Shown: in pieces, positions 565-64,000 of the stretch | Layout: each line of letters begins with the position of its first letter | Numbering within the stretch: position 1 is the stretch's first letter | Assembly (NCBI GenBank): GCA_022575985.1 | Contig: JAKSXM010000031.1 | Coordinates: 62,001-126,000 of the forward strand | Origin: Anagrus nilaparvatae | Taxonomy: Eukaryota > Arthropoda > Insecta > Hymenoptera > Mymaridae | DNA: 64,000 bases | Reading direction: 5' to 3' | Notes under the pieces: generated by a model | What the model was told of the DNA's origin: nothing | Seen by the model: the letters and a program-made list of their open reading frames with translations, nothing else | The model's database searches: none | Position numbers and translations under genes: made by a program

Positions 565-1309
565 TTTTAAATATTTTTTTTTTATAACTTTTGATTCACA
601 ATTTCCAAATATAAAATAATAAAATAAAATATAAAATAAAACAATATAACAATATAAAACTTAACTAATTAAAATATCAAAGAAATAAGTACGGAGATTC
701 AAATTATACTAATATTTTAATCAATAACTAAAAAAAAAGAAAAAGAAAATTTTATCTATTACCCCCACATTATTAAAAAAGATAAGATTTTCTTTTTTTC
801 AAATGTATCAAAAATTAAAAAATTAACAAAAACTTTTGTCTAAAAAAAAAAAATATGTCTAGACCATAGACAAAAAAAACACATACTTTGTATTTCAATA
901 ATTTTCCAATCAGACAAGATTTAATTACACTGGATTTTTTTAAAATTTTTAATAAAAGTAAATATTGTATGAAAATAAATAATAAAATAGATAGTAAATA
1001 CAATACTTTTTATTAATGAAAAAAAATTTATTAGATAAAAAATTTAAAAGAACAAAAATATTTTGAACCAGTTCATTCGATATCAAAAAAAATTAGTAAA
1101 ATATATTCGGAATTTTTTTTTTTTTAATCTAAAGTAAAGGATTTAAGTAATTTGTGTATTTCTGTAGGCATCAAAATAATCTTTTAAAGAATCAAATAAT
1201 AACATATTTTTATCGCTTAATAATAATAGTAAGAATAATATTTTGAATAAGGAAATTTTATTTTTAATAAAATCAATTTATTAATTTTTTAAATTAATAT
1301 TATAATTTA
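565..1309. other. AT-rich stretch without a gene
   Basis: Very AT-rich with homopolymer runs and short inverted A/T blocks. The transposon's terminal inverted repeat would be expected near its left part, but I could not pair it with another end because the element leaves the window. No coding frame looks real. Confidence 0.6.
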
Positions 1310-3884
1310 TTTAAGCAATTAGAATTTGTTTAAAAATTTTCGCATATAATTTTTTATCAAATTTAGTTTAAATTCGCATTCAGGGCATAAAAAAATACAT
1401 GAAACTTAGAGTGGCATCTATTTTCATAAAAAAAGTAATTAACATTTATAAATTGTTTAAACAAATTAGAATTTGTTTAAACAATTTCGCATATAATTTT
1501 TTATCAAATTTAGCTTAAATTCGCATTCAGGGTATAAAAAAATACATGCAACTTAGAGTCGCATCTGGTTTTCATAAAAAAAGTAATTAACATTTATAAA
1601 TTGTTTAAACAAACTGGAATTTGTTTAAACAATTTCACATATAATTTTTAATCAAATTTAGCTTAAAATTCGCATTCAGGGCATAAAAAAATACATGCAA
1701 CTTAGTGTCGCATCTGATTTTGATAAAAAAAGTAATTAACAATTATAAATTGTTTAAACAAATTAGAATTTGTTTAAACAATTTCGCATATAATTTTTAA
1801 TCAAATTTAGCTTAAAATTCGCTTTCAGGGCATAAAAAAATACATGCAACTTAGTGTCGCATCTGATTTTGATAAAAAATGTAATTAACAATTATAAATT
1901 GTTTAAACAAATTAGAATTTGTTTAAACAATTTCGCATATAATTTTTAATCAAATTTAGCTTAAAATTCGCATTCAGGGCATAAAAAAATACATGCAACT
2001 TAGTGTCGCATCTGATTTTGATAAAAAAAGTAATTAGCAATTATAAATTGTTTAAACAAATTAGAATTTGTTTAAACAATTTCGCATATAATTTTTAATC
2101 AAATTTAGCTTAAAATTCGCATTCAGGGCATAAAAAAATACATGCAACTTAGAGTCGCATCTGGTTTTCATAAAAAAAGTAATTAACATTTATAAATTGT
2201 TTAAACAAACTGGAATTTGTTTAAACAATTTCACATATAATTTTTTATCAATTTTAGCTTAAAATTCGCATTTAGGGCTTAAAAAATACATGCAACTTAG
2301 TGTCGCTTCTGATTTTGATAAAAAAAGTAATTAACAATTATAAATTGTTTAAACCAATTAGAATTTGTTTAAACAATTTCGCATATAATTTTTAATCAAA
2401 TTTAGCTTAAAATTTGCATTCAGGGCATAAAAAAATACATGCAACTTAGTGTCGCATCTGATTTTGATAAAAAATGTAATTAACAATTATAAATTGTTTA
2501 AACAAATTCTAATTTGTTTAAACAATTTCGCATATAATTTTTAATCAAATTTAGCTTAAAATTCGCATTCAGGGCATAAAAAAATACATGCAACTTAGTG
2601 TCGCATCTGTTTTTGATAAAAAAAGTAATTAACAATTATAAATTGTTTAAACAAATTAGAATTTGTTTAAACAATTTATTTGTCGTTTAATAAAAATAAT
2701 ATAATAATAATAATAGTAATAATAATAATTTTAACTTTCTTATTCTTTTTTATTAATTAAATTACTTTTTTTATCAAAAACAGATGCGACACTAAGTTGC
2801 ATGTATTTTTTTATGCCCTGAATGCGAATTTTAAGCTAAATTTGATTAAAAATTATATGCGAAATTGTTTAAACAAATTCTAATTTGTTTAAACAATTTA
2901 TAATTGTTAATTACATTTTTTATCAAAATCAGATGCGACACTAAGTTGAATGTATTTTTTTATGCCCTGAATGCGAATTTTAACCTAAATTTGATTAAAA
3001 ATTATATGCGAAATTGTTTAAACAAATTCTAATTTGTTTAAACAATTTATAATTGTTAATTACTTTTTTTATCAAAATCAGAAGCGACACTAAGTTGCAT
3101 GTATTTTTTTAAGCCCTGAATGCGAATTTTAAGCTAAAATTGATAAAAAATTATATGTGAAATTGTTTAAACAAATTCCAGTTTGTTTTAAAACAATTTA
3201 TAAATGTTAATTACTTTTTTTATGAAAACCAGATGCGACTCTAAGTTGCATGTATTTTTTTATGCCCTGAATGCGAATTTTAAGCTAAATTTGATTAAAA
3301 ATTATATGCGAAATTGTTTAAACAAATTCTAATTTGTTTAAACAATTTATAATTGTTAATTACTTTTTTTATCAAAATCAGAAGCGACACTAAGTTGCAT
3401 GTATTTTTTTAAGCCCTGAATGCGAATTTTAAGCTAAAATTGATAAAAAATTATATGTGAAATTGTTTAAACAAATTCCAGTTTGTTTAAACAATTTATA
3501 AATGTTAATTACTTTTTTTATGAAAACCAGATGCGACTCTAAGTTGCATGTATTTTTTTATGCCCTGAATGCGAATTTTAAGCTAAATTTGATTAAAAAT
3601 TATATGCGAAATTGTTTAAACAAATTCTAATTTGTTTAAACAATTTATAATTGTTAATTACTTTTTTTATCAAAATCAGATGCGACACTAAGTTGCATAT
3701 ATTTTTTTATGCCCTGAATGCGAATTTTAAGCTAAATTTGATTAAATATTATATGCGAAATTGTTTAAACAAATTCTAATTTGTTTAAACAATTTATAAT
3801 TGTTAATTACATTTTTTATCAAAATCAGATGCGACACTAAGTTGCATGTATTTTTTTATGCCCTGAATGCGAATTTTAAGCTAA
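1310..3884. mobile_element. Foldback-like element: two inverted arms of tandem ~149-bp units
   Basis: The left arm (about 1310-2686) has about nine direct units and the right arm (about 2755-3884) eight units in inverse orientation. The anchor CAGGGCATAAAAAAA recurs at 1381, 1528, 1677, 1826, 1975, 2124, 2273, 2421 and 2570 (spacing 147-149). Its complement recurs at 2816, 2965, 3114, 3265, 3414, 3563, 3712 and 3861. Each unit contains a palindromic core with two GTTTAAAC blocks around TTAGAATT. The 2690-2750 centre is an (AAT)-rich loop. Some unit variants recur across the arms (AAGCCCTG at 3112 and 3412; GGGCTTAAA at 2276). Long arms of tandem subrepeats are typical of Drosophila FB-type elements. 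No transposase frame is present, so this would be non-autonomous. Family assignment is inference. Confidence 0.75.
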
Positions 3885-5689
3885 GCGATTGAAGTATTTT
3901 TTCAATTTTTTACAGTTTCTTCGAAATATTTCATCCAAAAAAGATGATTTTTTTTTTAAATCATGGTATTCTTTTCAAGCGAATTCGAATTTTTTATTTT
4001 TTTTATTTTTTATAAATATATTACCAAAAAATAGCTATAAAAACTTAGAAAAAACTAACAAGTTGGGGGAAATAATATTTTGTTCAAAAACATATAAAAA
4101 TTTTGGTTGGCGAAGGTCATTTTTTAAAAGCTGTACCTTTCAGCTAATTCTGCTAGTAAGGTATTAAAATTTTATATGGCCCTTGGCTAAAAAAGGGGAA
4201 TTCCCCAGATTGCATTTTACCAGGTAATTTACGGGCGATCTGGATCATTCTTTTTTTTTCTGGCTACGATCTGTAAATATACCACACTGAAATAGTATAT
4301 TACGAGCCCGTGTCCAGAAAAGTAAAGAATGGCTCAAATCGCACGTTAATTACCTTCCGAGGCAAAGCTGAGGTTGGTAAACTGCAATTTGGGCCATTCT
4401 ATATTTATCAACAAGGGTCGTATACGATTTTCCTTCGTCAGTGGCAAGAAATTGCGTCTTTTGCGGTCGCGCAGCGGCCGGGAATTACGTGCTTTCTGGT
4501 CGCTGACAAGAAAAAAAAATCCGGTTGCCGCTACCAGAATTCCGTTAGCGGCAACCGGATTTTTTTTTTTTATTTCATATGGTTGCAAATGTCAAAATGT
4601 AAAGAAAAGATAGAAAAAAATTTTTTTTTACTCGTTTGTCAAAGAATCACAAGAAAAGTTTTTTTTATGATTTATCATGCCACATTACTCGCATTTTAAA
4701 TGCATGAAAATAATATTTTTTAAATTTTTAAAAAAATTTTTCTTTACATTTTAAAGACATTTGCAATCGTTTAAACGGAATTCCGGTAGCCACAAACAGA
4801 TTTTTTTTCTTCAATGTATTTTTTATTCTGGTAATACTAAAAACAACAAAAACATTTACATTTAAAAATTACGCAAGTTTTCTATGTGTGCTTGTATTTT
4901 GGCCTTTGTTTTTAGCTGTAAAAATTTTTCACTGCTAAAGTTTTTAGATCTGAAAAACTTTACGCAAGTTTTAAATATTAAAATACATATTATCTAAATT
5001 TGCTATATTGAAAATTACCAATTATTATTTGAAGCGAATTGACCAATAATTAATCCAACTTACAATTATCAAAAATTATTTGTAAAAACTTGCCAGGCTG
5101 CCAAGTAAAAAAAAATTGAAAATTTGAAACTTAATTTGTAAAATTTGCAAAATAAATATATCCATTTTTCATAATTAATTAACGGCCTGACAAGTTTTTT
5201 TAAATAATTTTTAATAATTTGTAAGTTGGATTTTTGGATTTCGTTCAAACTTGCGTCCCGAGACGACACGTCTCTGTAGATTTATGAATGAATAAATATT
5301 TTCTGTAATTTAGGTTTTTGCAGGAAACGAACCCATATGATCAAGGCTGAGATGTAACTTTGTGGCAATGTATTGCAGGCTAGTAAAATTAAAAGTATAA
5401 ATTTTGTCTTCAGAAAAAATTCAAGAAAATGCTTTGAATTTGCATCAAGACATATAAACTGTATTTATGTTTTTTTTTTTTTTTTAAATAAAAAATTAAA
5501 TGTTTTCATTAATTTAATTTTATATTTTATTTGACCAAAGTCCTCGATACCCAAGTAGTTTACTAAGCAATTATTTTGAGAGTTCTAAAAATTAAGTTAG
5601 ATAATATTTGTAAAGTATTTAAAATATTAAAAAAACTTTTATAACTTAAAAAAAAGAAAAAAATAATAATAATAGAAGAATAAAACAAT
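3885..5689. other. Non-coding AT-rich DNA with small hairpins
   Basis: No supported gene. Contents are an imperfect hairpin around 4335-4402 (GAATGGCTCAAAT facing ATTTGGGCCATTC), the strong GC hairpin listed separately at 4511-4570, and a related sequence GGAATTCCGGTAGCC near 4780. The remainder is A/T runs. Short open frames over 4310-4699 exist on both strands because of the hairpins and are not credible genes. Confidence 0.6.
4511..4570. repeat. Perfect hairpin with A/T-run flanks
   Basis: The stem ATCCGGTTGCCGCTA (4520-4533 region) pairs with TAGCGGCAACCGGAT (4546-4560). It is extended by nine A on the left and ten or more T on the right, giving about 23 bp of uninterrupted pairing around a 12-nt loop containing GAATTC. 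The GC core stands out in AT-rich surroundings. It could be the core of a short MITE or a strong RNA hairpin. It resembles an intrinsic terminator only by coincidence of shape, since this is eukaryotic DNA. Confidence 0.7.
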
Positions 5690-6041
5690 ACAAATTATTT
5701 TGACGTGTAACAATTTTTTTGTTTCACAATATTTCAGCAACAAATCCGTTGGCCTCTTCAGGTGATCTGAATACAAAAATTATCTAATTTTTTCTGAATT
5801 ACTAATGAACAATATGAGAATTCAAAAAATTTTTATATTAACAATGTGTTAAACTTACATAAAAATACTTGTTTTATGAGCTATGCGACACTGGGTGCTG
5901 CCGACATGAGACTAATTATTTTTTATTTTTTAAAAAAATCTTTGAAAAATCTTTATAAATACATTAAATAGCCATATGTTTTTCATCACATTTCTTTAAT
6001 ATACGTATCAAATGTATTTTAATATTTATTAACGTGGGACA
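5690..6041. mobile_element. Non-coding end region of a Penelope-like element, inverted relative to its RT remnant
   Basis: This segment is repeated at 19215-19597 with the same order of blocks: TTGTTACACGTCAAAATAAT on the minus strand, then CCTGAAGAGGCCAACG, then AACGTGGGAC just before the coding remnant. On the minus strand it carries a hammerhead-like motif (5719-5775). The conserved order in two copies shows it belongs to the element and is not a chance neighbour. PLEs are known to carry such pseudo-LTR sequence, sometimes inverted. Confidence 0.55.
5719..5775 (-). ncRNA. Hammerhead ribozyme-like motif in PLE terminal sequence
   Basis: On the minus strand: UCAC (5765-5762), CUGAAGA (5761-5755, fitting CUGANGA), an imperfect helix II with CAAC/GUUG pairing, GAAA (5735-5732), a minimal AUAU helix III, U as the cleavage nucleotide (5728), and GUGA (5727-5724) closing helix I with UCAC. 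The very short self-complementary helix III resembles PLE hammerheads described as acting as dimers. The second copy near 19270 has lost GAAA (GUAA), so it is decayed. Confidence 0.45.
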
Positions 6042-14176: not shown

Positions 14177-15232
14177 GTCGTAGCTGCGCGCTCCAGTTTT
14201 ATAGCCTATATAATATAGGCGCCAGCCATACTAATCTCGCCCAAAAATTAAATTTCTTTTTCCGAGGATAAAAATAGGTGGTATTTTTGTTTTTTGGCCC
14301 GCTGAACACGAATTCGGGGTCCATTTTGCGAATTTCGTGGATAATTTTTTGTTATTAACAAATTATTGGCCAATTTCGCAATAATTTGTTAATAACAAAA
14401 AATTGACCACGAAATTCGCAAAACGGACCCCGGATTCGTGTTCAGCGGGTCGAAAACCATAAATACCACCTATTTTTATCCTCGGAAAAAGAAATTTAAT
14501 TTCTTAATTTTTGGGCGAGATTAGTATGGCTGGCGCCTAGACTAATAGGCCGGCTTTTAGCGTATAAAACTGAAAGAGGTCAGCTTCATAGACAAATATC
14601 AAAGTTTCGAGACTCTTAAGTTTAAATAATATAAATTTACCAATATTATGTCATGAATTGTTTATACTTATCTTATAGCTTTATTTACATTATTAAATTC
14701 TATCAATAATTATAATAAATATAATAATAATAATAAATCTTTATAATTTTATATTTGACAAAATATAATAATATTTTAAATATTTTTAGTTTATCGCTTT
14801 TCCTTGAACGTTAATGTTGTTTAATATCATATAATTCTAAATTTTTTTTAATAAACTTTTTTATTATTAATATGGAGAAAATGAATAGCGTGTTATTCAG
14901 CGTAGAAATGATTCAAAAGATCAAATTATAATATTTTTACCTATTAAAGAATGTTACGATGAATCACCAACAAACTGTAAATAAAGCTATAAGATAAATA
15001 TAAATAATTCATGACATAACATTGGTAAATTTATATTATTTAAAATTAAGAGTCTCGAAACTTTGATATTTGTCTATGAAGCTGACATCTTTCAGCTTTA
15101 TACGCTAAAAGCCGGCCTATAGGCTATAAAACTGGAGCGCCCCGCTTCATAGCGAAATAGGCTTGCTCGAGCATTATTACTCTATGGGCCGGCTTATAGC
15201 CTATAAAACCGATTATCCTATGGGGCTACGAC
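14177..15232. mobile_element. TIR transposon (GTCGTAG...CTACGAC) built of two nested palindromes
   Basis: The element starts GTCGTAGC at 14177 after a TATATAT run and ends GCTACGAC at 15232 before ATATATA. Inside are palindrome 1 (14217-14540, arms about 160 bp, centred near AAATTATTGGCC) and palindrome 2 (14546-15119, arms about 145 bp, beginning AGGCCGGCTTTTAGCG). Subterminal TTTTATAGCCTAT blocks occur near both ends. The end sequence, ATAT flanks and AGCCTA subterminal motif are shared with 19598-20570 and with the right end at 48348. No protein frame remains. Confidence 0.65.
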
Positions 15233-40132: not shown

Positions 40133-41126
40133 CACTGGTGGAAAAAAAAAGAGTACGAAAAAGTACAAAAAAATTCAAAAGTATTCATAATGTATTAAAA
40201 ACTATTCTAAAGTAACGCAAAAAAATTCTTAAGAACTTATAATAATTCAAAACTGTGCACAAAAAAAGTTCAAAAGTGTAACAATTTGCCGTCCTCGAAA
40301 ATACTTTTATACTTTTTTGAATTGTTTTGAATACTTTGAAATACTTTAAAATAGTTTTGAATAATTTTAAAATTTTAAAATTTTTATTAAATTCATAATA
40401 TTTATTTGTTTTATTTTTGCATTTTTCAATTGAAAAATTTAATATTCCAATTTAATATTGAATAATCCGGGTTTATCCACGAGAGCAAAAAATTAGTTGC
40501 GAAAAAGTGAATTACTTTATCACGATAGTGTCAAGATAAATTCGCTCTTATAAGCAGTTGAAAATACATTTTGTTAACGAGATACAAAAAAATAGAAGGT
40601 GCCATCTAGAAGATTAGAAAAAAAATAATATTTTTAATATTTTTTTTAAACGTAGATGGCCTCTCACTTTTTTTTGTATTCGTTAATAAAATGTATTTTC
40701 AACTGCTTATAAGAGCGAATTTATCTTGACACTATCGTGATAAAGTAATTCACTTTTTCGCAACTAATTTTTTGCTCTCGTGGATAAACCCGGATTATTC
40801 AATATTAAATTGGAATATTAAATTTTTTAATTGAAAAATGCAAATATAAAACAAATAAATTTTATGAATTTAATAAAAATTTTAAAATTTTTAAATTATT
40901 CAAAACTATTTTAAAGTATTTCAAAGTATTCAAAACAATTCAAAAAAGTATAAAAGTATTTTCGAGGACGGCAAATTGTTACACTTTTGAACTTTTTTTG
41001 TGCACAGTTTTGAATTATTATAAATTCTTAAGAATTTTTTTGCGTTACTTTAGAATAGTTTTTAATACATTATGAATACTTTTGAATTTTTTTGTACTTT
41101 TTCGTACTCTTTTTTTTCCACCAGTG
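40133..41126. mobile_element. ~1-kb near-perfect palindrome (CACTGGTGG ends)
   Basis: The two ~490-bp arms match almost base for base, from CACTGGTGGAAAAAAAAAGA at 40133 to its complement ending CCACCAGTG at 41126. Shared inner blocks include GCCGTCCTCGAAAATAC, AATCCGGGTTTATCCACGAG and GATAGTGTCAAGATAAATTC. The centre is at about 40630. No coding frame. CACTG ends occur in several DNA transposon superfamilies. A target duplication was not clear (CTTC/TCCT), so the superfamily stays open. Confidence 0.75.
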
Positions 41127-42397: not shown

Positions 42398-42448
42398 ATT
42401 AAAATTGAAATTAAATCTTATGCACTCATAAAACTACAAAAACAAGGT

Positions 42449-43906
42449 ATGCCTGGTAGACCCCTTATAAATCATAAAACAGCTCCAAGCTACAAAATTT
42501 CTAAAAAATTAAATAATATCATAAAAAATAACTTAAAAATTGATAAAAATTATAGTATTAAAAATAATATTGAATTTGTAAACAAAATTAAGAATTTAGA
42601 AGTAAAACCTGATTATAAATTGGTAACATTCGACATAAAAAGTATGTATACAAACATACCTATAGAGGAAACAATAGAAATATTAAATACTAGATTGAAA
42701 GAATCATTAAAATTAAATAATTTGGAAATAAATGAAATAATTTCTATTTTAAAAACAATATTAAGCCAAAATTATTTTTGTTTCAACAATGAATATTATT
42801 TGCAAAAAGAAGGCTTAGCAATGGGATCCCCATTAAGCTCACTTTTGGCAGATATTTTCATGAATGATTTCGAAAATAAATACATATTTAACGACATAAA
42901 TCCACATAAAAAGAACATAGTTTCATACAACAGATATGTAGATGACATTTTTATAATTTATAAAGGTACTAACAGGCAAATAGACGCTTTTAAAAAATAC
43001 ATAAGTAAATTTAATAAAAAAATTCAATTCACAGAAGAGTTAGAAACAGACAATAGTATTAATTTTTTGGACTTAAAAATAAGAAAAGATAAAAATAAAT
43101 TAAAGTTCTCAATTTTTAGAAAAATAACAACTACAGACACAGTTATACATAACGAATCACACCACCCGCGAAGTCAAAAATTAGCTGCGTTCCACTCGCT
43201 TATACACAGGGCCGTAAATATACCGATGGACAAAGAAGATTTTAATACGGAAATAGCAATAATTAAACAAATCGCGAAAAATAACGGTTATAATATAGAA
43301 ATTATAAACAAATTAATTAAAAAACATAAAAACAAAAAAAATAATGCATTTAATAATAAAGCTTATAACAATAAATATTTAAGTTCAAAATACACAACGA
43401 AATTGCCAAGCATACTAAAAAACGCAGTAAAAAAATATGGGTATAATATAGGGTTCAAAACGGATAATCAATTAGATAAACATTTTAAAAAGAAAAACCA
43501 CACTAATAACAATTTTCTTGATAGAACCGGTGTATATAAAATATCATGTGACTCGTGCGATAAAATATACATAGGGCAAACGGGACGCAGCTTCAGAAAA
43601 AGGTTTAATGACCACATACCTAAAACACAAAATATAAATAATACACAACAATTAGAAAAAGTAAATACAAAATACGGATTACATTTAATTAATAATAACC
43701 ATGACTACACAGACGACAAAATTAACAATATACATAAAAATTTAAAACCGATACACTTTTGCAATAAAGGTAAAATTTTGGATACACTAGAAGAATTTGA
43801 AATTTATAAAAATACACAAATAAATGCAAATAAATTAATTAATGATAAGTTACTAAATAAAAAAAACGTATTATTTGATAAAATAATAAAAAAACATATT
43901 ATATAA
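42449..43906 (+). CDS. Penelope-like element protein: reverse transcriptase + GIY-YIG endonuclease, N-truncated
   Basis: 485 codons without interruption. RT motifs in order: YKLVTFDIKSMYTNIP (about residue 56, with the first catalytic Asp), GLAMGSPLSSLLADIF (about 124), the Y-V-DD box in NRYVDDIFIIY (163-166) and INFLDLKIRK. Then comes the linker with TDTVIHNESHHPRSQKLAAF, and a GIY-YIG nuclease from about 360 (TGVYKISCDSC, KIYIGQTGRSFRKRF). Upstream, in frame to 42398, YALIKLQKQG still matches the PLE finger region. So the ATG at 42449 is internal to the original protein and the copy is 5'-truncated. The coding bases are very AT-rich, giving a Lys/Asn/Ile-heavy protein. The absence of stops suggests a recent insertion. 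The product would copy RNA at nicked DNA; this truncated copy probably cannot mobilise itself. Confidence 0.9.
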   Translation: MPGRPLINHKTAPSYKISKKLNNIIKNNLKIDKNYSIKNNIEFVNKIKNLEVKPDYKLVTFDIKSMYTNIPIEETIEILNTRLKESLKLNNLEINEIISILKTILSQNYFCFNNEYYLQKEGLAMGSPLSSLLADIFMNDFENKYIFNDINPHKKNIVSYNRYVDDIFIIYKGTNRQIDAFKKYISKFNKKIQFTEELETDNSINFLDLKIRKDKNKLKFSIFRKITTTDTVIHNESHHPRSQKLAAFHSLIHRAVNIPMDKEDFNTEIAIIKQIAKNNGYNIEIINKLIKKHKNKKNNAFNNKAYNNKYLSSKYTTKLPSILKNAVKKYGYNIGFKTDNQLDKHFKKKNHTNNNFLDRTGVYKISCDSCDKIYIGQTGRSFRKRFNDHIPKTQNINNTQQLEKVNTKYGLHLINNNHDYTDDKINNIHKNLKPIHFCNKGKILDTLEEFEIYKNTQINANKLINDKLLNKKNVLFDKIIKKHII

Positions 43907-44345
43907 TAAAAAATAAGAAAAAGTAAAAAAAGAAAAAATAAAAAGAAATGAAATAGAAGAAACGAATTAAAAAACATATTTTATATAATATTAACTTCCT
44001 CCTAGGGAGCACTTGTACATTAGGAAAAACAGATGTGATTTCAAACACTTATAAAAAATTTTAAAATTCTTTATTACATTATAAAACTAGAAATAATTTA
44101 AAAATCTTCATACTATAAAATCTTCATATGTATACAAAATAAATATTCAAAAAATCTTTTCCATTTAGTCATAAAATAATTGTGAGTCTATACAGACATA
44201 ATCTAAAGTTACAATATCATATTCAAATGTTTTAAATAAATTTAGTTTAATTATAATACAGACCTGATGATGGGAATTTATTCCTGAAACTAGTCGTCTA
44301 ATTATTATACAAAAACAAGTTGTAAAAAGAAGGATCAATAAATAA
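43907..44345 (+). mobile_element. 3' untranslated region of the PLE
   Basis: Non-coding tail of the element following the stop at 43906. It contains the hammerhead-like motif at 44250-44308 and ends in A/T-rich sequence near GATCAATAAATAAATTAAAA. The exact 3' end was not fixed. Confidence 0.6.
44250..44308 (+). ncRNA. Hammerhead ribozyme-like motif in the PLE 3' region
   Basis: CUGAUGA (44264-44270), an imperfect helix II (44271-44285: GGGAA/UUCCU-type pairing), GAAA (44286-44289), the self-complementary ACUAGU as a minimal helix III (44289-44294), C as cleavage nucleotide (44295), and helix I AGAC (44260-44263)/GUCU (44296-44299), extended after a small internal loop by A/U pairs. The 2-nt helix III loop cannot close in a monomer, but the palindrome would allow a dimer, as described for PLE hammerheads. 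The base of helix II is a U-U apposition, which weakens the call. Confidence 0.6.
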
Positions 44346-44663
44346 ATTAAAATAAATATGTTTTGATTTAATTAATTAAAAATATCATTAAAAAAATTAA
44401 TGAACTAACAAACTTACTTTTGATTTTAATAAAAAAAATTTAAGGTTATAAAAATAAAAATTTATAAATACCAAATGATAAAAGACCTTATTTAATTTTA
44501 TAACAAACTTTTTTTTTTAATTTTTTCTTCAAATTCGATGATCTTACAATAAAATAAATTTTTGAAATTTTATTTACGTCCATTCATTTTTAAAAAAAAT
44601 TTTATAATAGATAATATTTTCCTTTCACCACAATCACAATAATAATCAGAACAAATTATTCAA
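44346..44663. other. AT-rich stretch without a gene
   Basis: Nothing recognisable. Confidence 0.5.
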
Positions 44664-46906
44664 TTAATATATGGGCACGTCCAGGGAAGAACGACCAGCC
44701 GAAAAATAAAAAATAAAAAAAAAAATTTTTTTTGTGTCACTTTTTACCTGAGATTTGTGAAACCGCTCCTATTTTAGACTTCCTGATGCATTATTTTGAT
44801 ATACGGCTGCTCCAAAGTTGGATTTTTTCATTTTTTTGATTTCAGCTGCCCAGTTCAACCTAAAATAACTCTGAACCATTTAACTTTTTATATATACATA
44901 AGATTGGGAAAAAGTTTTATTTTTACCTGGACTACCAAAAAAAAAAAAAAAATTTCCGTTTTGACTCTTTTCACTTTTTTTCCTCCTCGACGGTAGCTTT
45001 CAAACATCCAGAAAATTTCTTTCGCCATGATTTTTTTCAACTTTTTTTTTCTTAAAATTCACTTCAAAGGGTCTAATTGACATCCTGAAAGTCCTGAGAT
45101 ATGATAGGCAATGATCGGTCCACGATCTTAAATTTTAGTTCTTCAATTTACCTAAAAATCATCAAAAATGTAAAAATTTAGAAGTAAAATTTAAAAAAAA
45201 TTAAATTAGACCTTACCCACATATTTCAACTTGAAAATCTTCGTCTCCTGGACCACATGAACACATTAAAACATAAAAGTAGGTCTGGATACTTTTCCTG
45301 GAGCTAAATCACCCAGAACCAACCTCCCGTCGACATTAAAAAATTAAAAAAATCTCTAAAACAATTGATAAATTACAACTAAAATAATTATAAGATATTA
45401 AATTAGACTGAAAAATACTTAAATTAACTTACCAAATATATTTTCAAGTAAATTAAAAATCTAAAACTCCATACTGCCCATGTCTGGAACCTAGAAAAAA
45501 AATTAAACACAAAGATTAATTCTTATTTTTTGAAAAAAAGTTATAAAAAGAATTTTATACTTATCTGATCATTATTTTCCTGGTGCACCTTCTTCTTCTT
45601 GACATAAATTAGTACCTAAAAAAATTAATTAACAATTAATAACAATTAACAACAATATTTATCATAAATTAATTTTATAAGTATAACTTTACAAAATCAT
45701 ATGTGAAATTAGCAGAAGAAAAATTTTGCATTCCTCTGAAAAAAACTACTTTATCATGTGTTGATTTATTATTTTATTTCTATGATGCATTTCCATGAGC
45801 ACGACATTTTTATTATAAAATTTTTCTTGTAAATGCTAATTTCACATTTGTAAACAAACATATGATTTTGTATTATTATACTTATAAAATTAGTATAAGA
45901 TAAATATTGTTGTTAATTATTATTAATGGTTAATTATTTTTTTTAGGTACTAATTTATGTCAAGAAGAAGAAGGTGCACCAGGAAAATAATGATCAGATA
46001 AGTATAAAATTCTTTTTATAACTTTTTTTCAAAAAATAAGAATTAATCTTTGTGTTTAATTTTTTTTCTAGGTTCCAGACCTAGACATGGGCAGTATGGA
46101 GTTTTAGATTTTTAATTTACTTGAAAATATATTTGGTAAGTTAATTTAAGTATTTTTCAGTCTAATTTAATATCTTATAATTATTTTAGTTGTAATTTAT
46201 CATTTTTTTTAGAGATTTTTTTAATTTTTGGATGTTGACGAGAGGTTGGTTCTGGGTGATTTAGCTCCAGGAAAAGTATCCAGACCTACTTTTATGTTTT
46301 AATGTGTTCATGTGGTCCAGGAGATGAAGATTTTCAAGTTGAAATATGTTGGTAAGGTCTAATTTAATTTTTTTTTAATTTTACTCCTAAATTTTTACAT
46401 TTTTGATGATTTTTAGGTAAATTGAAGAACCAAAATTTAAGATTGTGGACCGATCATTGCCTATCACATCACAGGACTTTCAGGATGTCAATTAGACCCT
46501 TTGAAGTGAATTTTAAGAAAAAAAAAGTTGAAAAAAATCATGGCGAAACAAATTTTCTGGATGTTTGAAAGCTACCGTCGAGGAGGAAAAAAAGTGAAAA
46601 GAGTCAAAATGGAAAATTTTTTTTTTTTTTTTTTGGTAGTCCAGGTAAAAATAAAAATTTTTCCCAATCATATGTATATATAAAAAGTTAAATGGTTCAG
46701 AGTTATTTTAGGTTGAACTGGGCAGCTGAAATCAAAAAAATGAAAAAATCCAACTTTGGAGCAGCCGTATATCAAAATAATGCATCAGGAAGTCTAAAAT
46801 AGGAGCGGTTTCACAAATCTCAGGTAAAAAGTGACACAACAAAAATTTTTTTCTCATTTTTTATTTTTCGGCTGGTCGTTCTTCCCTGGACGTGCCCATA
46901 TATTAA
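44664..46906. mobile_element. 2.2-kb palindromic element (GGGCACGTCC ends)
   Basis: Two ~1.1-kb arms match with few differences, from TTAATATATGGGCACGTCCA at 44664 to its complement ending at 46906. Shared blocks include GAAGAACGACCAGCCGAAAA, CAAAGTTGGATTTTTTC, CTCCTCGACGGTAGCTTTC, GACCGATCATTGCCTA and CAAGAAGAAGAAGGTGCACC. The centre is near 45790. No long open frame exists. On the right arm several exon-like blocks are bordered by TTTTTTAG/GTACTAA, TTTTTTCTAG/GTTCCAG and TTTG/GTAAGTTAA. Superfamily unknown; the AT-rich ends make the target duplication ambiguous. Confidence 0.75.
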
Positions 46907-61173: not shown

Positions 61174-62499
61174 TGATATCAAGGATTTATGTAATATTAG
61201 ATGCTTATATTTTGATTTATTTTGGTGAAAAGTAAATTTATATTTAAATTATTATTTTATTAATTAAAATATTTTTATTTATTCTTTTAATTAATTTGTT
61301 ATATGATTATTTAAGATTTTTTTAAATTTTGTACAGAAAAGACTTTCAATGTTCCATTTTATAACAAAACGATATGAAGGAATGGAAGGAATAAACACAT
61401 GATAGGAAACCTAACCTGATCTAATATTTCATGACGTGGACCTGTGGGTGACCAACAGGTTCCGCGCACATGGAGGATAACCTCCGTGGAAGTTTAGCCT
61501 GAGGGTAACGAACAATCCTGTGACACTAATATATTAAATCGGGGATTACCACCGGAGTATTTACACTATGTATTTACTCACCAGCTGGGGATAGCATATC
61601 GTATATGATGTTATATATGAAAACTAGTCACACAAGCAGAAGATGTATAATCTTTTCGAGTTATTAATTTCACATTAAAATTTTACCAAATAATTTTGTA
61701 TAAAATATTATACCCTTAGTATAATACTTCCATATATTTTGGACAAAAACAACATGATAATAACAAAAATTAATAATAAAAAATCAAAACCAACAACATC
61801 GGGAACAGATCAGACATGCTATGACACGTCACATACGCTAGTACTATATGTATAGGCATATAAAATATATTTATAACTTTTATTTACGATTATTTTGCCC
61901 TTTTTTGTATTTGTAACGAATAAAGTTACTCGTACCCAGGAAGGCTTGTTTTAAAATATTGAAATATCAAATATTTTATTAATGGATAGTTGCGATAAGA
62001 TTAGAGGTTTTGATGGATTAGAGGTAGAAAATAAGAACACCGTTTTACAAATACTTCTTCCATATTGTTTCCGACATATTTATTAACGAAAATTTGAATT
62101 TGAATTTAATTTTGGTAATTTGAGAGTTAATTTTTATTAATAATGATCATTAAATACCTTTCTTAATTATTTTCAATAATTAAAGAAGGACGTATTTTTT
62201 ATTCTTGAAAAATAATTTTAAAATTTATTTAAAATTATTAATTTAAAAATCCATTTTAATTAATGGTTAGAAATAATATTGAACAAGAAATTGTCATTAT
62301 TTCTATGTCTAATACGGCTTTGTTCGTTATAATCATAAAACACATTTATTGTGTATTCGATTTGTCAAATTTGAAATTTTCCGCGAACATAAAGATAACT
62401 ATGTTATCTTCTATACCAATAATTAATTCGACAATTGATAAATGACTTGTCTACTTTCAAGAATGAAAAATAAGTCTTCCGAGAGAATTTAATTCGGTG
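61173..62499. other. AT-rich DNA; one GC-richer block; no gene
   Basis: 61430-61600 is GC-richer with the hairpin GGAGGATAACCTCC (61471-61484), but I recognise no family. 62187-62236 is the first copy of a 50-bp direct repeat whose second copy overlaps the tRNA-like 3' end. Confidence 0.5.
62187..62236 (+). repeat. 50-bp direct repeat, copy 1
   Basis: AGGACGTATTTTTTATTCTT through TTATTTAAAATT, identical by eye to 62567-62616, 380 bp downstream. Confidence 0.85.
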
Positions 62500-62570
62500 T
62501 CTTCCATGGTGTAGTGGTTAGCACAATGGACTAGCAATCCAGAGACCCGAGTTCAATTCTTGGTGGAGGA
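62500..62570 (+). tRNA. tRNA-like gene, anticodon loop CTAGCAA (AGC), body like tRNA-Gln
   Basis: 71 nt fold into a cloverleaf. The acceptor TCTTCCA/TGGAGGA is fully paired with one U-G. The D arm is GTGT/GCAC with loop AGTGGTTA. The anticodon arm TGGA/TCCA has a 7-nt loop CTAGCAA. The T arm is CCGAG/CTTGG with loop TTCAATT. A-box (GGTGTAGTGGTTAGCAC) and B-box (GAGTTCAATTC) are good. The anticodon AGC would read Ala codons, but the body (CCATGGTGTAGTGGTTAGCAC) resembles tRNA-Gln, and the Ala identity pair G3-U70 is absent (here U3-G70). The variable loop is one nt short and the outermost anticodon-stem pair is A-G. It may therefore be a tRNA pseudogene or a tRNA with altered anticodon. A T run follows at 62575. 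Confidence 0.65.
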
Positions 62571-62616
62571 CGTATTTTTTATTCTTGAAAAATAATTTTA
62601 AAATTTATTTAAAATT
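62567..62616 (+). repeat. 50-bp direct repeat, copy 2, between tRNA-like gene and satellite
   Basis: Starts within the last four bases of the tRNA-like sequence and ends exactly where the 504-bp satellite begins (62617). Confidence 0.85.
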
Positions 62617-62861
62617 GAAAATTAATAATTTTTATTACTCGTTTGTAATTCTTAAACAATAATATTTATAATCGACCTTTTTACGAGTACATAGTATTAA
62701 ATGAATTTACAAATTCATCGCCCACGCTTTTTATATGCGGATGCTTATCGTCATCTCTTTTTTTATTATGGCATACAAAGCGGCGACATTAGATGAATTT
62801 TTAAACTTATTTAAAAATTTTGAATTTACGCGGATTTTAAATGTCGGTACAGAAGGTACCT

Positions 62862-62935
62862 AGCGTTTCGATCAACACTAACACATAGATCTCATCAGTG
62901 TAGCTGTGTGTGTTAGTGTATGTGCTACAGACGCT
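62862..62935 (-). ncRNA. Type III hammerhead ribozyme, satellite unit 1
   Basis: Minus strand, 5' to 3': AGCGU (helix III), C (cleavage nucleotide, 62930), UGUAGC (helix I), a 19-nt loop, GCUACA (helix I), CUGAUGA (core), GAUC, a 14-nt loop, GAUC (helix II), GAAA with its last A pairing into helix III, then CGCU. Helices are 5, 6 and 4 bp without mismatch, and every consensus core residue (C3, U4, G5, A6, G8, A9, G12, A13, A14, A15.1, U16.1) is present. Cleavage would occur after C at 62930. Both ends lie in helix III, so this is topology type III. Loop 1 contains ACACUAACACA and loop 2 its exact complement UGUGUUAGUGU. Confidence 0.85.
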
Positions 62936-63365
62936 GATGTAAACACGTCCTTATTTTTCTTATATAGTTAACAAATGGCGATTTTAGCACTTGTGAGGAC
63001 GACTCACATTGCTTTAGCCATCTGTTCTGTATATAAGAAATGATGTTATATATATATATTTATTGAAATGCGAGTTGAATGTTATAACTCAGAGCGTTAT
63101 TAGGTCCAAGCTCTATATATGAAAATTAATAATTTTTATTACTCGTTTGTAATTCTTAAACAATAATATTTATAATCGACCTTTTTACGAGTACATAGTA
63201 TTAAATGAATTTACAAATTCATCGCCCACGCTTTTTATATGCGGATGCTTATCGTCATCTCTTTTTTTATTATGGCATACAAAGCGGCGACATTAGATGA
63301 ATTTTTAAACTTATTTAAAAATTTTGAATTTACGCGGATTTTAAATGTCGGTACAGAAGGTACCT

Positions 63366-63439
63366 AGCGTTTCGATCAACACTAACACATAGATCTCATC
63401 AGTGTAGCTGTGTGTGTTAGTGTATGTGCTACAGACGCT
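63366..63439 (-). ncRNA. Type III hammerhead ribozyme, satellite unit 2
   Basis: Same sequence 504 bp downstream, with all helices and core residues unchanged. Predicted cleavage nucleotide at 63434. Transcription of the array on this strand would give 504-nt units between successive cleavage sites. Confidence 0.85.
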
Positions 63440-63869
63440 GATGTAAACACGTCCTTATTTTTCTTATATAGTTAACAAATGGCGATTTTAGCACTTGTGA
63501 GGACGACTCACATTGCTTTAGCCATCTGTTCTGTATATAAGAAATGATGTTATATATATATATTTATTGAAATGCGAGTTGAATGTTATAACTCAGAGCG
63601 TTATTAGGTCCAAGCTCTATATATGAAAATTAATAATTTTTATTACTCGTTTGTAATTCTTAAACAATAATATTTATAATCGACCTTTTTACGAGTACAT
63701 AGTATTAAATGAATTTACAAATTCATCGCCCACGCTTTTTATATGCGGATGCTTATCGTCATCTCTTTTTTTATTATGGCATACAAAGCGGCGACATTAG
63801 ATGAATTTTTAAACTTATTTAAAAATTTTGAATTTACGCGGATTTTAAATGTCGGTACAGAAGGTACCT

Positions 63870-63943
63870 AGCGTTTCGATCAACACTAACACATAGATCT
63901 CATCAGTGTAGCTGTGTGTGTTAGTGTATGTGCTACAGACGCT
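63870..63943 (-). ncRNA. Type III hammerhead ribozyme, satellite unit 3
   Basis: Third identical copy, in the unit cut by the window edge. Predicted cleavage nucleotide at 63938. Confidence 0.85.
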
Positions 63944-64000
63944 GATGTAAACACGTCCTTATTTTTCTTATATAGTTAACAAATGGCGATTTTAGCACTT

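Follow-up and report, generated by a model that had tools for sequence, protein, structure and literature searches.

The right end of the window (the stretch of 64,000 nucleotides of Anagrus nilaparvatae DNA analyzed in this report) consists of an exact 504-bp tandem repeat, each unit of which carries a hammerhead ribozyme motif. It raises the question of what kind of sequence this is and how its copies came to their places in the genome. A preliminary description had called the repeat a satellite. The structure of the copies points to a different origin: the repeat is probably a non-autonomous, non-coding, retrozyme-like element whose type III hammerhead is pseudoknotted and which was copied into the genome from circular or multimeric RNA by the enzyme of a Penelope-like element (PLE).

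The repeat occupies positions 62617–64000 with two full units and a 376-nt piece, and there are zero differences between them (Table 1). Beyond the window the array reaches C333:130331, which is 68331 in window numbering. The complete element (locus L009, 62617–68331) comprises ~3.2 units followed by ~8.1 inverted units. Open runs in the circular unit reach at most 52 codons; the unit is non-coding. Zetavirus-like circles have endless reading frames. This candidate was rejected, as 504 is divisible by 3, yet 8 to 15 stops per lap are present in all six frames.

Table 1. Features of the window that belong to the 504-bp element, its target site and the neighboring PLE (window numbering).
Feature	Position	Strand	Remark
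First complete 504-bp unit	62617..63120	.	Position 62617 is end A, the inferred start of one cDNA
Second complete unit	63121..63624	.	
Third unit, clipped by the window end	63625..64000	.	Element continues to 68331
Type III hammerhead, copy 1	62862..62935	-	Predicted cleavage between 62930 and 62929
Type III hammerhead, copy 2	63366..63439	-	Predicted cleavage between 63434 and 63433
Type III hammerhead, copy 3	63870..63943	-	Predicted cleavage between 63938 and 63937
Copy 1, loop I part of the 11-bp loop-loop complement	62909..62919	-	Positions by hand
Copy 1, loop II part of the 11-bp loop-loop complement	62875..62885	-	Positions by hand
Left 13-bp target duplication TTTATTTAAAATT of L009	62604..62616	.	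Right copy beyond the window, where the element ends
Same 13 bp in an insert-free paralogous flank	62224..62236	.	Natural empty-site comparison; by eye
'Tail' between start sites A (unit position 1) and B (~37–41)	62617..62657	-	End B of L009 outside the window
5'-truncated PLE, family 1	42420..44392	+	RT frame 42398–43906; minimal hammerhead core at 44264

On the minus strand each copy of the motif reads AGCGU-C / UGUAGC, loop I (19 nt), GCUACA, CUGAUGA, GAUC, loop II (14 nt), GAUC, GAA, ACGCU. Stem III (5 bp, AGCGU/ACGCU), stem I (6 bp, UGUAGC/GCUACA) and stem II (4 bp, GAUC/GAUC) are free of mismatches, the cleavage triplet is GUC and the core consists of CUGAUGA and GAAA. The arrangement is that of a type III hammerhead, with three stems round CUGANGA, GAAA and UH and with stem III open-ended. 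A strict descriptor scan of both strands of the 64 kb found precisely three hammerheads and gave no match on either strand of 40 first-order Markov windows. A scan for the core alone added one weak core at 5761. The Rfam model RF00008 (Hammerhead_3) matches 62860–62937, 63364–63441 and 63868–63945 with 33.4 bits and an E-value of 5.5e-5 in a search of 1430 bases. The descriptor and the model agree with the preliminary description, which had placed three complete, mismatch-free type III motifs on the minus strand at 504-bp spacing and at the right coordinates. The covariance-model search over the array, which it had proposed as a check, thus matches all three copies, but the score lies below the gathering score of 48.5, the cut-off set by the Rfam curators, and a default scan gives just a tRNA. 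The low score probably results from the long loops. An Rfam scan of the whole window at E ≤ 1 reported no hammerhead and missed the three known copies too; it is weak evidence on further hammerheads.

Loops I and II contain a perfectly complementary pair of 11 nt, and a complement of at least 11 nt was reached in 25 of 20,000 loop shuffles. Probably, not all of the 11 pairs can form together within a loop of 14 nt. Among nested folds, the lowest energy belongs not to the hammerhead but to a hairpin made of the same 11 pairs (z = -0.21 relative to shuffled sequences), which is incompatible with stems I and II. Its computed energy is -20.1 kcal/mol, compared to -12.1 kcal/mol for the hammerhead stems calculated without loop-loop pairing. 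As the nested energy minimum, this predicted hairpin counts against the favored explanation. Judged from the motif, self-cleavage of minus-strand transcripts into 504-nt monomers is plausible, possibly followed by circularization.

In the genome assembly (488.7 Mb, 393 contigs), 471 matches to a 42-nt ribozyme stretch were found with up to three mismatches, and none to the same pattern written backwards. The unit itself has at least 200 matches (40 of 613 candidates scored). Thirty-nine loci were analyzed; they were picked from the best-scoring matches and well-preserved copies are over-represented. They are dispersed insertions with a usual plan of tandem units, a join and tandem units in inverted orientation. 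The hammerhead sense points outward in both arms. Unit length is 504 bp in the window and 503–516 bp in other loci. In the 24 palindromic loci the arms measure 73 to 7474 nt, and at least one arm exceeds a full lap in 23 of them. At 17 joins the two arms are separated, or overlap, by no more than 5 nt. An RF00008 search of the genome at E ≤ 10 gave no match among the 68 of 40,753 candidates that were scored; it missed the known copies too and is therefore uninformative. Applied to six more loci, Rfam found five hammerhead matches in L024 (29.7 bits) and no hammerhead in L044 or in the PLE loci L050, L066, L075 and L079. An exact 24-mer of the ribozyme had no match in viral contigs.

L039, L040 and L041 (C156:7523300–7577600) have common flanks, and the whole region was duplicated after the insertion. 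Four inverted pairs of the ribozyme stretch have an equal spacing of 277 bases (C62:31905395/31905672, C79:10152625/10152902, C79:13977806/13978083 and C95:12466113/12466390); perhaps one palindromic copy was multiplied at the DNA level within another repeat. At C62:36947084–36948760 the ribozyme copies are spaced by 545 instead of 504 bases, a variant of unit length. In L021 a stretch of ~1.2 kb without a unit match (4642–5808) splits one unit and is likely a later insertion.

The outer ends of the insertions are of two kinds, termed A and B. One A end and one B end are present in 28 of the 39 loci (L030 was counted by eye, as BLAST ran beyond its edge), while the combinations A-A and B-B do not occur. 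BLAST edges place A at unit positions 1–7 and B at 26–42. When the start of the word shared by the flanks is added to the BLAST edge by hand, B falls at positions 37–41 in 19 of 23 loci; L010, L011 and L021 (45) and L044 (32) are the exceptions, and L016, L030 and L036 are omitted from this sum. Relative to the BLAST edge, the A end is shifted ~18 nt inward in L021 and ~11 nt outward in L033. The remaining 11 loci lack one or both start-site ends: ten have one of them and another end elsewhere in the unit (L017, L019, L028, L029, L031, L032, L035, L042, L043 and L046), and L045 has neither. In the tail between A and B a possible hairpin, AUUACAAACGAGUAAU, was noticed by eye at 62634–62649.

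The insertions are flanked by short target duplications. With L039, L040 and L041 counted once there are 26 independent two-ended loci. A word of at least 10 bp is common to both flanks in 24 of these compared to 25 of 650 mismatched pairs, and a word of at least 12 bp in 23 compared to 4 of 650; the mode is 13 bp. L016 (8 bp) and L036 (5 bp) fall short of 10 bp. In a narrower earlier search, 22 of 25 loci had a shared word of 8 bp or more, compared to 41 of 600 mismatched pairs. The A flank is AT-rich next to the element, with 86% A+T over its final 12 nt and T as the last base in 18 of 25 cases. For L009 the target is also present in a paralogous, uninterrupted copy, as an exact 50-bp repeat connects 62187–62236 with 62567–62616. 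By eye, the right flank of L009 continues like this uninterrupted copy. The flank looks like a tandem duplication with the element inserted into one of the copies. A tRNA-Ala (AGC) gene (62499–62572) lies between the two copies of the 50-bp repeat (window 62187–62616). A tRNA-derived origin of the unit was rejected, as this gene sits in the flank and outside the unit.

These features decide against the earlier assignment as a satellite. Within the window the identical head-to-tail units fit an ordinary satellite that carries a hammerhead by descent. A satellite would form long arrays at few sites and without target duplications, whereas the copies are short arrays dispersed over many contigs, mostly palindromic, with two defined outer ends and duplications of ~13 bp. 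The target duplications largely contradict an ordinary satellite, which was set aside on these and on the inverted arms; hammerhead-bearing satellite DNA is a very remote explanation. Inverted tandem arms and target duplications are also expected from a Foldback-type DNA transposon with inverted repeats built of tandem units. Such an element has identical terminal sequences at both ends, whereas A and B differ by ~36–40 nt in the 28 two-ended loci, whichever the orientation. Furthermore, no transposase was found in the unit (stops in all six frames) and every unit contains the ribozyme. The Foldback transposon was set aside on the unequal ends and is equally improbable.

The ends and target sites resemble those of PLEs instead. 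In AT-rich DNA, the enzyme of the anole PLE (Frangieh et al. 2024) cleaves each of the two strands and extends it, and reverse transcription starts inside the RNA at two adjacent sites, which gives rise to a 'tail' of 30–40 bp (PMC11167929). Arkhipova et al. (2013) described head-to-head copies and duplications of 8–10 bp; of the two inverted pLTRs, one carries a tail of 31 bp (PMC3846280). In these sources PLEs share with the 504-bp element the two starts of reverse transcription 30–40 nt apart, head-to-head inverted copies, short duplications, an AT-rich target and a hammerhead in the RNA (PMC11167929, PMC3846280). The two starts, with the longer end on one of the inverted copies, are found in the A-plus-B loci (28/39), and the short duplication at an AT-rich target in 24/26 (A+T 86%). 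The duplication of the 504-bp element is somewhat longer than the published 8–10 bp (PMC3846280). In addition, PLEs encode a reverse transcriptase (RT) and a GIY-YIG endonuclease and have a minimal type I hammerhead, whereas the 504-bp unit encodes neither enzyme and has a full type III hammerhead. It is therefore not a PLE and at most mobilized by one.

PLEs are abundant in this genome, with at least 85 matches (85 of 4083 candidates were scored, and all 85 matched). The family 1 copy in the window establishes their presence; as a partner of the 504-bp element it is only a candidate, not a proven one. Pfam recognizes the RT alone in this copy, and a GIY-YIG motif was found by eye. Among the 120 protein relatives of family 1 that were listed, the named species belong to Lepidoptera, Orthoptera and Hemiptera, and two entries are named GIY-YIG endonuclease. 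In all three twin copies of family 2 that were retrieved (L068, L072 and L075) the two tails are of unequal length, and the tail ends are 36, 23 and 33 nt apart, respectively (BLAST edge). Their shared words measure 11 bp (by eye), compared to 13 bp for the 504-bp element, which counts against the favored explanation. For copies of family 1 only the long end was found. Families 3 and 4 were covered by a single copy each, and the tails were read in families 1 and 2. A comparison of the 504-bp unit with 30 PLE loci revealed no kinship beyond AT-rich, chance-like matches, and the best match falls in a flank. L050 and L066, which represent two PLE families, have a common stretch, TTGTAAAAAGAAGGA, downstream of the minimal hammerhead. 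It may be an RT-binding motif. Of these two families one ends at two sites and the other showed one.

Other repeats are present in the window. Two long inverted-repeat elements (40143–41117 and 44703–46868; 450-bp arms 98% alike; nested arms of ~1 kb) are probably DNA transposons. Several copies of non-LTR retrotransposons with endonuclease and RT frames adjoin (AAT)n runs between 48802 and 60963; the single named relative among the 120 listed is from Bactrocera tryoni. A hairpin at 14321–14426 weakly matches models of plant microRNAs on each strand, with scores under the gathering cut-offs, and is probably a small inverted-repeat transposon. Palindromic arrays of a 149-bp unit (1292–2677, and inverted 2760–3884) have a plan similar to that of the 504-bp element. 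No hammerhead was found in the 149-bp arrays (1292–3884), and their best shared edge word is 9 bp.

Owing to the 504-nt period of the template, the start and the stop of either cDNA can be read from every insertion. Starts at the outer ends and cDNAs running inward would result in RNA sense pointing outward in both arms, which is the orientation observed. The sequence variants give information on the template. Across 138 copies from 39 loci (L040 and L041 included), units diverge by 0.35% within an arm, by 0.37% between the arms of one locus and by 1.28% between loci. The 11 copies of L009 have no difference. In L011 a stem I variant is present in 17 of 17 copies and absent from every other locus analyzed. 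Both arms carry the variants of their locus and thus derive from one variant. A single unit is the simplest source, and this favors a circular template.

The following series of events would account for these features. The array would be transcribed in the hammerhead sense. The hammerheads would cut this RNA into 504-nt pieces, which would be closed into circles; of this step, the motif is the observed part. The RT-endonuclease of a PLE would then bind the RNA, nick both strands of an AT-rich target ~13 bp apart and start reverse transcription from the internal sites A and B, ~36–40 nt apart, one for each target strand. The ends, the duplications and the A-plus-B pattern are observed. Both cDNAs would be copied from the same RNA variant over distances that vary and in many cases exceed a full lap, as seen in the array structure and the shared variants. 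Finally, the two cDNA ends would be joined without a preferred unit position to give palindromic tandem arrays that are locally satellite-like, the structure seen in the loci. In a more specific form of this course, an animal element would be copied by rolling-circle target-primed reverse transcription. Two RTs of one PLE complex would work on one ribozyme-made circle, one at A and the other at B. Each would use one of the cut target strands as its primer, and they would move round the circle one behind the other. This form is a serious possibility and is put forward tentatively. If true, it would explain the combination of A and B ends, the same variant in both arms and arms of several laps.

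The same element could be inserted in the PLE manner from an uncut multimeric transcript, with the hammerhead dispensable or acting at another stage. In L024 the G12 of the core is changed to A in 7 of 7 copies; the ribozyme is presumably crippled, yet this variant was amplified, which counts against strict dependence on the ribozyme. Among 148 ribozyme copies, 13 (7 loci) fail the strict core or cleavage pattern and 90 (29 loci) are identical to that of the window. There is no signal of selection on the ribozyme: the 74 ribozyme sites have 2 shared and 31 private alleles, the other 430 sites 11 and 123 (without the same-flank copies L040 and L041), and transmitted variation does not measurably spare the ribozyme in this young family (Fisher p = 1.0). 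Furthermore, the anole PLE also inserted ribozyme-dead RNA, and in vitro it mainly used unprocessed RNA as template (PMC11167929). On the other hand, variants common to both arms are unexpected from a heterogeneous array transcript, unless the source array was uniform. An uncut template is regarded as rather unlikely.

Alternatively, the inverted arms of a PLE-type element could arise by self-priming (snap-back) of a single cDNA, as proposed for palindromic PLE junctions of the rotifer Penelope (PMC3846280). The inner ends are at most 25 nt apart in 5 of the 24 palindromic loci, where 2.4 are expected. The remaining inner ends are spread over the unit, and over the 24 loci they have no preferred offset (KS p = 0.34 against a uniform distribution). 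The second arm may be longer than the first in either direction, with B arms of up to 4096 nt, and both outer ends are defined start sites. Snap-back is thus not favored and is improbable overall; it may apply to the five loci with close inner ends. Joining of two separately primed cDNAs is the preferred reading.

The preliminary description had regarded a type III hammerhead in such a repeat as unusual. According to the parts of the literature drawn on here, animal hammerheads are mostly of type I (PMC7229834, PMC11722881), in line with this view. Pseudoknotted type III hammerheads, on the other hand, are already described from dipteran and termite genomes and from delta-like RNAs of toad and termite (PMC7936874), so that the type in itself is less exceptional than assumed there. 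Like the hammerhead of the 504-bp unit, these are animal type III motifs with pairing between loops I and II. The termite genome copies are isolated motifs, whereas a mobile tandem unit is present here (PMC7936874). Moreover, the published motifs have longer helices and 4-nt contacts (GCCR/YGGC), in contrast to the stems of 6 and 4 bp and the 11 complementary nt found here (PMC7936874).

Closest in overall organization are the metazoan non-LTR retrozymes (Cervera and de la Pena 2020, PMC7229834). These are also small, non-coding, dispersed tandem repeats with a hammerhead per unit, low G+C and no LTR, and circular RNA intermediates and mobilization by PLEs have been shown or proposed for them (PMC7229834). 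The 504-bp repeat resembles a retrozyme in that it is a dispersed, non-coding tandem unit with a hammerhead. Animal retrozymes have type I hammerheads and RNAs of ~170–400 nt (PMC7229834, PMC11722881), whereas the hammerhead here is of type III and the unit measures 504 bp. In view of the hammerhead type the element is called retrozyme-like. Inverted arms with two start-site ends, as present here, were not found described for metazoan retrozymes in the portions of PMC7229834 drawn on, and the word 'inverted' is absent from that text. Among insects, pDo500 of Dolichopoda cave crickets is likewise a tandem repeat of ~500 bp with a hammerhead per unit; its 49-bp hammerhead is of another build and the repeat is described as satellite DNA (PMC2837043). 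The LTR retrozymes of plants share the type III hammerhead and a proposed circular RNA intermediate. They are bounded by LTRs, have 4-bp duplications and are thought to rely on the enzymes of Gypsy elements, in contrast to the inverted tandem arms and ~13-bp duplications found here (PMC7229834, PMC6155905).

In the portions of the open-licence literature covered, neither a type III animal retrozyme nor an animal retrozyme shown to be moved by a PLE was found. Type III hammerheads of insects are mentioned as 'in preparation' (PMC7761336), which makes prior unpublished knowledge likely. PLEs have been named as the likely movers of retrozymes on indirect grounds, namely shared type I hammerheads, tandem copies and co-occurrence (PMC7229834, PMC7761336, PMC11722881). 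Within this literature, the 504-bp type III retrozyme-like element and insertion ends with the PLE signature are new. Here the insertions themselves carry the start-site signature of PLEs, which bears on how animal retrozymes move. With 504 nt the element is easy to test, and its type III hammerhead contrasts with the mostly type I hammerheads described for animals. If the rolling-circle reading is true, the arrays record start sites, processivity and joining, and they would do so for PLEs generally.
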